DNA from: Opitutus sp. GAS368
Lineage (GTDB): Bacteria; Verrucomicrobiota; Verrucomicrobiia; Opitutales; Opitutaceae
NCBI GenBank assembly: GCA_945874455.1
Contig: CAMCHO010000003.1
Coordinates: forward strand, 1-64,000
DNA length: 64,000 nucleotides
Reading direction: 5' to 3'
Position 1 is the first letter of the stretch. The number at the start of each line of letters is the position of its first letter. This document shows, piece after piece, positions 12,700-51,204 of this stretch. The position numbers and the translations under genes were made by a program. A model generated the notes under the pieces. It did no database searches and was not told the origin of the DNA. It saw only the letters and a list, made by a program, of their open reading frames with translations.

Positions 12700-13345
12700 C
12701 GGTGCGGGCCCGTCCGCTCTCAACGCACGCTCACTCTGCGCGACCGGCCTCGCCTGCCTTTTGCTCGTCTGGCTCTTTTTTCCCCTGATGCTCCTGTCCG
12801 CGCCGCGAAACTCCTCAGCGGCGACGTTTCGTGGTGCGACCTGACCGCGCTTACGTTTCACTCCGCAACGCCACCGCTCCCCACGCCGCTCGCCTCTTGG
12901 GCCCACGTGCTCCCCGTCTGGTTTCACCTCGCCGCCCGCGCCGGCATGTTTACTTGCGAGCTCCTCATTCCATTTTTCCTTTTCGCCCCCCGCACCTGCC
13001 GGCACCGCCCCGCGCTCCTCGCTTCACCCTTTGTCACGTAATACGTGACAAACGTTTCCTCCGAATTGCGGCCACGTGTCACGCCGCTCATCCCCCACCG
13101 CTAAGGCCTCTTCGCCGTCATGACCCATCCGCGCAGGGAACGTGTCTTCGAGGGCCGCGACCCTCGCCTCGGCTGGTAACCCTGGTTCGCTGCCCTCGGC
13201 CATCCCACGCATAACTCCGCGTTCCCCTCGGTCTGCGAACCTCCGCTGCGCGGCACACCCGCAGTCCTCGCCGTGGCCGAAAAAAATCCTTTCCCGCAAA
13301 AACCGCTCCGCCACCTCCGCGTCGTTCGTTACGAATAACCCTTCA
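12700..13345 (+). pseudogene. Decayed lipase maturation factor (LMF1-like) gene
   Basis: Frame A: CLLLVWLFFPLMLLSA. Frame B: AAKLLSGDVSWCDLTALTFHSATPPLPTPLASWAHVLPVWFHLAARAGMFTCELLIPFFLFAPR. Frame C: GLFAVMTHPRRERVFEG/RDPRLGW*PWFAALGHPTHNSAFPSVCEPPLRGTPAVLAVAEKNPFPQKPLRHLRVVRYE*. These match, in order, remembered LMF family segments, with frameshifts, stops and internal deletions. Confidence 0.75.
13031..13051. repeat. 21-bp palindrome TTGTCACGTAATACGTGACAA (copy 1)
   Basis: Perfect 10-bp arms around one central base; identical to copies at 49735 and 49812; followed by acGTTTCC. Confidence 0.95.
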
Positions 13346-31214: not shown

Positions 31215-31369
31215 AATATCCTCAACCACTCTACTCGAGCCCGAAAACGCGTCGACACCTGATTGAAAAGTTCCCTCGCCCCGCAACCCCGCCTCCTCCC
31301 ACCGAAATCCCCTCGCCACCACGCCGACTCCTTCCCCGGGTAATCCCACTCCCCGCACGCTTGGCCCTT

Positions 31370-31437
31370 AGTCATTCCTCATTCCTCATTAGTCATTAGT
31401 CATTAGTCTCCCTCCCTCCCTCCCCCTCTTCCTCAAC
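31370..31437. repeat. Simple-sequence repeat tract (TCATTCC / TCATTAG / CTCC)
   Basis: agtcattcctcattcctcattagtcattagtcattagtctccctccctccctccccctc read directly. Confidence 0.9.
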
Positions 31438-44643: not shown

Positions 44644-44700
44644 GGTAAAATCCTCACAGGACTCCCCCCCGAGGTAAATCCTTTGCTCAGACTCATCCAA

Positions 44701-44988
44701 TGTAGCGGCGAGCGCCAGCAAGCCGAGGCCAGCACCCCTCTCATCCGATGTAGCGGCGAGCGCCAGCAAGCCGAAACCAACGCCCGTCTCGTCCGATGTA
44801 GCGGCGAGCGCCAGCAAGCCGAAACCATCACCCATCTCGTCCGATGTAGCGGCGAGCGCCAGCGAGCCGAAACCAACGCCCGTCTCGTCCGATGTAGCGG
44901 CGAGCGCCAGCAAGCCGAAACCAGCGCCCCTCTCGTCCGATGTAGCGGCGAGCGCCAGCGAGCCGAAACCAGCACCCGTCTCCGCCGC
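44701..44988. repeat. Tandem array of six 48-bp units
   Basis: Consensus TGTAGCGGCGAGCGCCAGCAAGCCGAAACCAACGCCCGTCTCGTCCGA; unit starts at 44701, 44749, 44797, 44845, 44893, 44941. Confidence 0.97.
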
Positions 44989-47865: not shown

Positions 47866-49065
47866 TCAGGCGAAGCTACCACCCTGGGTGAGGCCGAGCT
47901 CGTGGCGACGCCGCTTGCGGTCGGCAGCAGCAGCGCGCACGTAGCCGCTGCGGCGGTGCTCGGCGAGCGGGTCGGCCGGGAGCTGGTTCGCCTGGCGCCA
48001 CGCGGCGAGCGCCGGCGCCACGTCGGTGAAGAACGCGTGCTTCAAAATCAACTCAGCATCGACGACGTTGTTGCTCGCTTGGGCGCGGCGGAGAGCGTCG
48101 TGATCAACGAGGGCAGCCTTCGCGTAGAGTTCCTGCGCCATCACGACCGTCTGGATGGTCGCCTCGATCTTGGGTTTCTCGTTGTGACATTGGTCGATCA
48201 TGTAGGCGATCTTCGGCATCCGACCGCGATCAGCAGCGAAGAAGTGGATCTCGTGAAAAATCCGGAAAACCTGATACGGATCGATCGAGCCGAGAGTCAG
48301 ATCGTCGTCGGCGTAACGGCGGTCGTTAAAGTGGAAGCCGCCCAGCATGTCTTCGTCCAGGAGCCAGGCCACGATCTGCTCGATGTTCTGGGCGTTGTAG
48401 TGGTGGCCGGTGTCGACGAGGACTTTCGCGCGTGGGCCGGCCTTCTTCGCCAGCAGCAGCGCCATGCCCCAGTCCGCGATATCGGTGGCGTAAAAAGCGG
48501 GTTCGAAGGGTTTGTATTCCACGAGCATCGTCTGCTTCGGCCCCAACTCGGCGTGCAGTGCGCGCAGGGATTCTTCAAAAGATTGTTTCCGCGCACGGAT
48601 GCTGCCTTGGCCCGGATAGTTCGTACCGTCAGCAAACCACAGCGAGAGACAATCGCTGCCGACCGCTTTCCCGATGGCCACGGAGTCGACGCAATGCTGG
48701 AGCGCGGCAGCGCGAACGATCGGGTCGTTGTTACCGAAAGAACCCCATTTGTAGCACTGATCCTGGAAGAGATTGGGATTGATGGCCCCGATCTTCACGC
48801 CGTGTTTGCGCGCGAGGCGGGCAACCGCTTTCGGGTCCTCACCAAGCTTGAAGTCCCACAACACGTGAACGGCCACCGTCGGGCAACAACCGGTGAGCGC
48901 ATGGACGTGGCCCGCGTCGGCGAGCTTGTCGTTCATATCGATGGCGGCGGCGTCCTGGAAAAATTTTCCAAAGCGCGTGCCCGTGTCGGCAAAGCCCCAC
49001 GAGGGCGTTTCGATGAGGAAGGTTTCAAGAGCGGCGCGGGCGCGGCGGAGTTGAGCAGGAGTCAT
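47866..49065 (-). CDS. rhaI: TIM-barrel sugar isomerase, L-rhamnose isomerase RhaI-like
   Basis: TPSWGFADTGTRFGKFFQDAAAIDMNDKLADAGHVHALTGCCPTVAVHVLWD; GAINPNLFQDQCYKWGSFGNNDP; LVDTGHHYNAQNIEQIVAWLLDEDMLGGFHFNDRRYADDDLTLGSIDPYQVFRIFHEI. Confidence 0.8.
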   Translation of the reverse strand: MTPAQLRRARAALETFLIETPSWGFADTGTRFGKFFQDAAAIDMNDKLADAGHVHALTGCCPTVAVHVLWDFKLGEDPKAVARLARKHGVKIGAINPNLFQDQCYKWGSFGNNDPIVRAAALQHCVDSVAIGKAVGSDCLSLWFADGTNYPGQGSIRARKQSFEESLRALHAELGPKQTMLVEYKPFEPAFYATDIADWGMALLLAKKAGPRAKVLVDTGHHYNAQNIEQIVAWLLDEDMLGGFHFNDRRYADDDLTLGSIDPYQVFRIFHEIHFFAADRGRMPKIAYMIDQCHNEKPKIEATIQTVVMAQELYAKAALVDHDALRRAQASNNVVDAELILKHAFFTDVAPALAAWRQANQLPADPLAEHRRSGYVRAAAADRKRRRHELGLTQGGSFA

Positions 49066-49183: not shown

Positions 49184-49204
49184 TTGTCACGTATTACGTG
49201 ACAA
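49184..49204. repeat. 21-bp palindrome TTGTCACGTATTACGTGACAA (copy 2), candidate operator
   Basis: Perfect palindrome directly adjacent to the ATG of the 49205 ORF. Confidence 0.95.
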
Positions 49205-49621
49205 ATGGCCTTGGCTGCGCGACCTGTCGATTCCATGGTTCGTCGCATGAGCATCTTGCTCCCGCCACCCCAGCTACCCGCGCCACTCGCAATTCCCCTC
49301 GAACTCGCCCTCTCCCTCGCGGAGGCTGCGGTGGCATCGATCAGACAGAGCATCAAACGGACGGCACGCGAACGCCGTCCACGGCGCGGGCTCACGATCA
49401 AACCAGGGGCCGCCACGCCCCTGTGGAACGAACTCGCCGCCGCCGTTCGCGTCCAGCTTGGCCGCCGCGGCGAAAAAACTAAACTAGCCCGCGTGCTCGG
49501 CTTGCCCCGACAGCGCGTGCACGAGTTTCTCCGCGAGCGCAACGCCCTGCCCGACGCCGAACGCACGCTGTTGTTGCTCGTCTGGCTGCAAGCGCGCCGT
49601 GAGGGCCGCGACTTGGCCTAA
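49205..49621 (+). CDS. Small basic protein with a candidate C-terminal HTH (Cro/XRE-like)
   Basis: C-terminal WNELAAAVRVQLGRRGEKTKLARVLGLPRQRVHEFLRERNALPDAERTLLLLVWLQARREG resembles a helix-turn-helix (TKLARVLGLPRQRVHEFLRER). Alternative starts at 49235 and 49247. Confidence 0.65.
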   Translation: MALAARPVDSMVRRMSILLPPPQLPAPLAIPLELALSLAEAAVASIRQSIKRTARERRPRRGLTIKPGAATPLWNELAAAVRVQLGRRGEKTKLARVLGLPRQRVHEFLRERNALPDAERTLLLLVWLQARREGRDLA

Positions 49622-49657
49622 GACCAGCGGAACGAAAATCACAATCGCACCGCGCAT

Positions 49658-49832
49658 TTGTCACGGAATACGTGACAAGTTTCCAAGGGCGTGCGTCACG
49701 CCTCCAAGGCGACGACGGCTTGGTCGCACGAAGTTTGTCACGTAATACGTGACAAGTTTCCAGGGGCGTGCGTCACGCCTCCAAGGCGACGACGGCTTGG
49801 TCGCACGAAACTTGTCACGTAATACGTGACAA
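49658..49832. repeat. Tandem array (2.3 x 77 bp) carrying three 21-bp palindromes
   Basis: Palindromes at 49658..49678 (one mismatch), 49735..49755, 49812..49832; spacing exactly 77 bp; inter-palindrome sequence nearly identical and contains hairpin GGCGTG-CGT-CACGCC. Confidence 0.97.
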
Positions 49833-49890
49833 GTTTCCGTCGGGGGGGGGCTGCGGTCGCGTTTCGCGCGGAAACACACGGGGCATCGCG

Positions 49891-50952
49891 TTAGGTCGCG
49901 TTTGCGCGTGATGGAGCGGGCACTCCGAATTTCGCAGACCAGGGAGTGAGCGCGTCGATGATGCAGGGATAGAGTTCGACGCCGTGGGCGAGCTGCTCAG
50001 CGCGGCGGCGCAGTCCATTTTCTCCGGGGAGGCGGACGCGCTCGACGCCGGGCCGCGGCGGCGTGGCACGGCAAGCGGCCGCGAGGTGCTCAGTTTGTCG
50101 GCGGAACTCCTCTTCTCCGCCGAAGAGCGCGGGCGAGAGCACTTGGAGAAACACACTCGCACCCCAACCTTCCTTGGGATCGGCGCGGCCGTGACCGGCG
50201 AGCGCGCCCGTCAGCGTTTCAACGAGGAGCGCAAATGCATAACCCTTGTGCCCGTGATCCACGCCGCCCATCGGGAGCAGCGCGCCAGGCGGAGTCGCGG
50301 AGAGCACGGCTGGATCGTTGGTCGGTTCGCCGCTGGCATCGAGCGCCCACGGACCAGGATATTTTTTATTTTCGGAGCGGAGGCGGTTGGTCAGTGCGTT
50401 CGTGGTGATCGACACCGAGACGTCCAGCATCACGGGATCTCCCGCCGTGGGCCACGCGGCAGCGATGGGATTCGGCGTGTAGATACCCACGCGTCCGCCG
50501 TGGGGCGCGACACTGGCGACGGCGGGATCGGAACACGACAGGAGCGCCATCAAGCCTTGGTCGGTGACGCGTTGGAGGTAAGCGGAAAGGCAAGCAATGT
50601 GATGACTGCGGCGGATGACGACGGTGCAGGTGCCGTTAATTTTGGCGCGAGCGATGGCGAGATCGAGGGCCCGCACGACGAGCCAAGGCCCGGGAAGGCG
50701 CTGGCCGTCCCACGTAATCGCAGCGGGCCAATCGGCGATGACGCGGGGCTCGCCGGTCTTTGTCATCGCGCCTTTTTCGAGCTCGGCGAGGTAAGGCGCG
50801 AGGAGGGCGAGGCCGTGCGTGGTGTGGCCGAGGAGGTCGCCCTCGGTGAGAATCTCGGCGACGACGGTCGCTTTGTCGGCGGCGAGTCCAGCGCGAGTGA
50901 GGAGCGCGGTGGCGTAGGCGATGAGTGCGGGGGCTGAGTGGCGCGCGGGCAT
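49891..50952 (-). CDS. Ldh family oxidoreductase (malate/L-lactate/ureidoglycolate dehydrogenase type)
   Basis: LTEGDLLGHTTHGLALLAPYLAELEKGAM; IIRRSHHIACLSAYLQRVTDQGLMALLSCSDPAVASVAPHGGRVGIYTPNPIAAAWPTAGDPVMLDVSVSITTNA; GGVDHGHKGYAFALLVETLTGALAGHG. Confidence 0.95.
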   Translation of the reverse strand: MPARHSAPALIAYATALLTRAGLAADKATVVAEILTEGDLLGHTTHGLALLAPYLAELEKGAMTKTGEPRVIADWPAAITWDGQRLPGPWLVVRALDLAIARAKINGTCTVVIRRSHHIACLSAYLQRVTDQGLMALLSCSDPAVASVAPHGGRVGIYTPNPIAAAWPTAGDPVMLDVSVSITTNALTNRLRSENKKYPGPWALDASGEPTNDPAVLSATPPGALLPMGGVDHGHKGYAFALLVETLTGALAGHGRADPKEGWGASVFLQVLSPALFGGEEEFRRQTEHLAAACRATPPRPGVERVRLPGENGLRRRAEQLAHGVELYPCIIDALTPWSAKFGVPAPSRANAT

Positions 50953-51204
50953 GGGCCGGAGCAAAGGACAGAAGAGAAAAACTCTCCAGCCTTTCGGAGA
51001 GCGAGTGAGCAAGAGTCGGCGAATCGTCGCGACGGCGGCACCGCGGCCGCGCGGATAGAAACGGCCGGAATTTGCCATCTCGACCCCGGGTGTATCTCGA
51101 CCCCGGGCTCGGCGGGCTGGGCAATCCCCCTGAAGCTCCCGGAGGGATCGCTACGCCGCCACGCTCCTCGCGATGACCAATATAAATGCATTACCCCGCG
51201 TTCA

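Follow-up and report, generated by a model that had tools for sequence, protein, structure and literature searches.

The question raised by this locus is how a small gene encoding a helix-turn-helix (HTH) protein is related to the palindromes that surround it and recur elsewhere on the chromosome. The locus lies in a 64,000-nucleotide stretch of DNA (the window) from Opitutus sp. GAS368 (contig CAMCHO010000003.1, positions 1 to 64,000), a member of the Opitutaceae, which are soil and freshwater bacteria. An original prediction, made from sequence alone, offered two options: an autoregulated DNA-binding protein with dispersed operators, or a selfish palindromic repeat mobilised or bound by its own small protein.

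The HTH gene and the palindromes around it

The gene encoding the XRE/Cro-like HTH protein is located at 49247..49621 on the forward strand, within a longest ORF of 138 aa (49205-49621). Translation likely starts at the Met15 codon (49247) and not at the ATG at 49205, because homologues align from Met15 and the sibling genome G160 lacks the first ATG. The palindrome described as abutting the ORF start would then lie ~43 bp upstream of the likely start codon, which corrects this part of the original prediction. The AlphaFold model of the ORF (pLDDT 84 overall, >90 from ~residue 70) contains helices at residues 90-98 and 102-111, with the recognition helix at ~102-111 in long-ORF numbering. Foldseek matches of the model are XRE/Cro-like, including P22 c2, C.Esp1396I and HipB (prob 0.8-0.97, E >0.08), none with E <0.001. 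These helices and matches support a lambda-repressor-like HTH fold as a model prediction, and the proposed C-terminal HTH thus held. Pfam returned YdaS_toxin matches for 23 of 29 homologues, all sub-threshold (best 1.2e-4), and the window protein scores 17.1 bits against YdaS toxin (PF15943), which does not meet the gathering cut-off of 30. No HUH motif was found beyond a chance HAH (HxH in 2 of 111 homologues), and the conserved columns of the homologues include no invariant Tyr or His and no transposase motif.

Upstream of the gene is a predicted sugar isomerase (47866..49065, reverse strand), and downstream a predicted malate/lactate-dehydrogenase-like gene (49891..51078, reverse strand), both named from our own reading of the sequence. 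The two serve as synteny anchors within the genus, where the cassette occupies this position between isomerase and dehydrogenase in six species; beyond the genus, no conserved partner gene was found next to homologues.

The 21-bp palindrome has an upstream copy at 49184..49204 (TTGTCACGTATTACGTGACAA, without strand, the predicted operator of the HTH gene), followed after the gene by copies at 49658..49678 (TTGTCACGGAATACGTGACAA, one mismatch, centre ~47 bp past the stop codon), 49735..49755 (TTGTCACGTAATACGTGACAA) and 49812..49832 (with perfect arms reaching 15 bp), and a solo dispersed copy is found at 13031..13051. The original prediction had listed the four palindromes round the gene and the solo copy; all their coordinates are confirmed, with the mismatch in the 49658 copy as a correction. 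The three downstream copies are held in a tandem array of 2.4 copies of a 77-bp unit (49656..49838). Other tandem repeats in the window are a 48-bp unit at 44692-44982 (6.1 copies, 91% matches) and a short TTAGTCA repeat at 31368-31408 (5.9 copies). The palindrome was absent from 100 dinucleotide shuffles (0 found). The draft genome of the strain (5.07 Mb, 333 contigs) contains 33 copies of the 21-mer and 45 copies of the 17-bp core GTCACGTANTACGTGAC with ≤2 mismatches, and the reversed control of these sequences gave 0.

Pairing of gene and palindrome type across the family

Homologues of the protein are present in 101 of 200 Opitutaceae genomes and were not found in ~350 genomes of the same phylum sampled outside the family; its named relatives all come from Opitutaceae, Opitutia or Verrucomicrobia assemblies. 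A phage or plasmid origin was rejected, since a homologue search of phages, plasmids and viral contigs (IMG/VR) found none. Four IMG/VR viral contigs (L333-L336) each carry one 17-bp core without a recognisable gene homologue. Up to eight paralogues occur per genome. The strain itself encodes one that is 54% identical (C5:35847-36158; L021, L027), with different palindromes of its own (GTCATCTATAAAATGAC / GTCATTTAATAGATGAC) upstream. None of 20 within-genome paralogue pairs shares an identical core site, but with P only 0.17, orthogonality of paralogues within a genome was not accepted as established.

Of 91 homologous loci, 62 have the gene flanked on either side by a similar palindrome. Shuffled controls gave 0 of 1820 and far windows 0 of 27, and the pattern recurred in most of another 20 loci. 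The palindrome sequence varies among loci, with 22 distinct 8-base half-site types, mostly with a TA-N-TA centre (e.g. GTCAACTA, GTAACGTA, GTCATCTA, TTTCACGTA and GTCACCAT). The pairing of gene and palindrome type is directly visible in the sequences. The downstream palindromes mostly lie ~15-50 bp past the stop codon. Perfect arms often continue beyond +-10 at homologous loci (31% with >=3 further pairs, 1.6% expected by chance), less markedly in solo copies than near the gene, and the extended arm sequences differ between the two palindrome copies of a locus. The extended arms exceed the expected footprint, and dimer binding gives no explanation for them.

The dispersed copies follow the type of the gene. 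Of 200 family genomes, 50 contain the GTCACGTA core, and every one of the 19 with >=7 copies of the 17-mer has a homologue, as against 101 of 200 overall; the GTCAACTA type occurs in 16 of the 200 and the GTAACGTA type in 32, and the reversed control gave 0. This genome-wide tracking is shown most directly by the sibling G146, in which the syntenic gene is bracketed by GTCACTTA in place of GTCACGTA: G146 has 35 dispersed GTCACTTA sites, G000 has 1, G067 has 3 and the other six genomes have none. Together with the 62 bracketed loci, such tracking supports the original proposal of a small HTH protein with dispersed cognate palindromes.

The type also changes in place, as comparison of orthologous sites shows. 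The window site at 13031 and the sites in L028, L038 and L051 are of the GTCACGTA type in G000, and their orthologues in G146 are of the GTCACTTA type, one of them a hybrid; the G146 orthologue of the 13031 site (TTGTCACTTAATAAGTGACAA) lies within an intact ORF. A pair of palindromes 45 bp apart in rlmN occupies the identical position in G146 and G026 and is largely of each species' own type. Hybrid sites, combining one old and one new half, number 11 in G146, 1 in G160 and 0 elsewhere, suggesting that the type changed stepwise.

The pairing has exceptions. The original prediction named the occurrence of the palindrome in genomes lacking the gene family as grounds for refutation, and this is partly met, as some genomes hold a few copies without a homologue. 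The complete genome G020 also counts here, with 19 GTCACGTA sites and no matching cassette, its sole homologue adjoining a GTCACC type. The G020 sites range from 0.19 to 5.82 Mb, ruling out the clustering in a single domain typical of parS/matS-like sites.

The raw association of residues with half-site bases is strong and peaks in the HTH (R102 with position 8, z 22). After tree control (Fitch, with a tree built without the HTH), the HTH columns are not enriched (3 of 150 vs 4 of 216 tests), and the covariation is mostly at the level of clades. A claim of direct readout therefore rests on few independent events, and the covariation was down-weighted as proof.

Spacing and placement of the sites

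Centre-to-centre distances between neighbouring palindromes cluster at ~45, 55, 66, 77, 89 and 104 bp, with a best period of 11.25 bp (bootstrap 95% 10.85-11.65). In a sample of 79 non-redundant pairs, in which similar spacers were collapsed, the phasing R is 0.535, above the 99.9% point of the jitter null (0.345), and phasing is seen separately in the cassette-side pairs (63) and the solo pairs (16). The 77-bp spacing of the array in the window falls on an 11-bp phased series. The period may be compared with in-vivo lac looping data, which fit a helical repeat of 11.1-11.6 bp per turn (PMC1762422). The helical phasing of neighbouring sites is seen in the sequences themselves and suggests contact between bound dimers, possibly on one helical face, although this is inferred in the absence of binding data. 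The sites are symmetric, and both centre orientations occur. Distances from upstream to downstream palindromes across the gene have no periodicity (P 0.996), leaving a phased loop around the gene unsupported.

Placement was assessed with gene calls from a simple codon-usage caller made for this analysis. In two genomes, 7 of 38 site clusters fall within ORFs, always in one frame, and the remainder are intergenic. Sites occur between convergent and tandem genes as well as inside ORFs, and no promoter preference or excess at divergent promoters was found. The site-bearing ORFs include genes for a DEAD_2 helicase, a glycosyltransferase, an RsmE-kind RNA methyltransferase and a radical-SAM protein resembling RlmN; the last two names are based on our own sequence reading and a Pfam domain. 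The functions of the genes with in-ORF sites are unrelated. The in-frame palindromes in conserved genes (L319 and L245, rlmN; L048, RsmE-like; L028; L038) encode peptides such as CHVLRDK and CHLISDK.

A second class of copies, GTGTCAC...GTGACAC, is found mid-element in a ~115-bp MITE with ends TATTACTCTGTTA / TAACAGAGTAATA and a CTAG target duplication (loci L034, L036, L039 and L044 in the strain's own genome), for which the siblings G160 and G067 contain clean empty sites. Some palindrome copies have thus spread via transposition inside a MITE. Target duplications and empty sites were seen for these 115-bp GT-type copies; no MITE features were seen for the TT-type solos or the gene cassette, and the TT-type solos, which lack a target duplication, are mostly common to siblings.

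Explanations and related systems

The explanation that we favour, with moderate confidence, is a dimeric, probably autoregulated HTH protein with chromosome-wide cognate sites kept by selection. The small XRE/Cro-type protein would bind as a dimer both to the palindromes flanking its gene and to matching palindromes scattered over the chromosome, with two dimers on neighbouring sites meeting on one DNA face. Occupation of the upstream palindrome would most likely repress transcription of the gene, and the dispersed sites would be chromosome-wide binding stations maintained by selection, our best guess being that each acts as a local roadblock, insulator or looping point and not as a classical promoter operator. 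In the absence of binding data, it is inferred that the protein binds, dimerises and represses its own gene, and what the dispersed sites do is likewise an inference. A bolder reading, which we find plausible but not the likelier outcome, is that the locus represents a new class of protein-repeat unit. In such a unit, an HTH gene standing alone between its own palindromes would have chromosomal sites private and orthogonal to it, all of these sites would shift in specificity together over time, and they would act via helically phased dimer contacts.

The main alternative, which remains possible, is a selfish palindromic repeat that spreads by REP-like transposition through a host or unlinked transposase, with the HTH protein carried along as a resident repressor or protector. 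It is supported by REPtron-like anatomy and type switching at syntenic genes (compare the REP/RAYT 'orthoswitches', PMC3686654), by mostly intergenic sites without promoter bias, by in-frame palindromes within rlmN, rsmE, helicase and glycosyltransferase genes, by the palindrome-carrying MITE with its CTAG duplications and clean empty sites, and by the extended perfect arms. Against it, type changes in place at orthologous sites, with one-arm hybrids and no new insertion; spacing is helically phased; HUH and transposase residues are absent from the protein, and its gene lacks a conserved neighbour; and the TT-type solos lack target duplications and are largely shared by siblings. In-place switching at orthologous sites and helical phasing between neighbours favour, of the two options originally offered, the first: a probably autoregulated DNA-binding protein with dispersed sites. 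Mobilisation of the repeat by the small protein beside it finds no support, as a transposase motif was not found.

An ordinary transcription factor with a regulon, whose palindromes would be promoter operators for the genes of one pathway, would account for the XRE fold, the palindrome upstream of the protein's own gene and the conservation of sites in place, but is unlikely given the sites between convergent or tandem genes and in ORFs, the lack of an excess at divergent promoters, the downstream palindromes mostly ~15-50 bp after the stop codon, and the unrelated functions of the genes with in-ORF sites. Very unlikely, and the least probable of the explanations, are palindromes acting as RNA or single-stranded DNA hairpins (terminators or mRNA 3' protectors), with only a secondary association with the protein. 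The extended perfect arms and the tight placement just past the stop codon fit hairpins, but helical phasing and the genome-wide tracking of the gene's type need a DNA-binding partner. Rho-independent terminators were rejected, as the palindromes have no T-tract and the region contains 0 terminator-like sites.

Among known systems, the REP/RAYT REPtrons are similar in that inverted palindromes flank a gene and the dispersed copies of each type depend on the matching gene; a change of repeat class at syntenic genes is also described for them ('orthoswitch', PMC3686654). The flanked gene with matching dispersed copies is found here too, but the protein of the flanked gene is an XRE-type HTH protein without a HUH motif or catalytic tyrosine, the palindromes are symmetric without a constant GTAG/GTGG tetranucleotide at one end, and, unlike in REPtrons, sites are helically phased and orthologous sites switch in place. 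In anatomy and type switching the system thus resembles a REPtron, but its protein does not pass the transposase test that defines one. Phage genomes, too, contain short sites in ~30 dispersed copies, both intergenic and intragenic: the stoperators of Cluster A mycobacteriophages, which are bound by one repressor, and, in Cluster O phages, 17-bp palindromes (PMC9283540, PMC4351075). Stoperators, however, are asymmetric sites oriented with transcription in phage genomes and bracket no gene, whereas the sites here are chromosomal and symmetric, and phages, plasmids and viral contigs yielded no homologue of the protein. The dimeric XRE/Cro-CI regulators (P22 c2, the C proteins of restriction-modification systems, HipB) share the fold and the expected dimeric palindrome recognition and autoregulation, for which binding data are lacking here; the present protein differs in falling below the Pfam cut-off, in having no partner gene and in having tens of chromosomal sites. 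Rickettsia palindromic elements also insert in frame within protein-coding genes, but they are ~150 bp long, compared with 17-25 bp here, and the source consulted for them (PMC10969869) reports no DNA-binding gene that matches them. The open-access literature searched contained no description of this gene-palindrome system, and we could match no named system to this partnership of protein and repeat.

The locus and its relatives preserve a natural record of how a DNA-binding protein and all its sites in the genome have shifted specificity in concert. The record includes hybrid intermediates and comparable orthologous sites, making the co-evolution of a regulator with tens of sites directly testable. 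It also indicates that a REP-like system of gene and palindromes is possible with an apparently pure DNA-binding protein in place of a transposase, a point relevant to the purpose of dispersed palindromes in bacteria.
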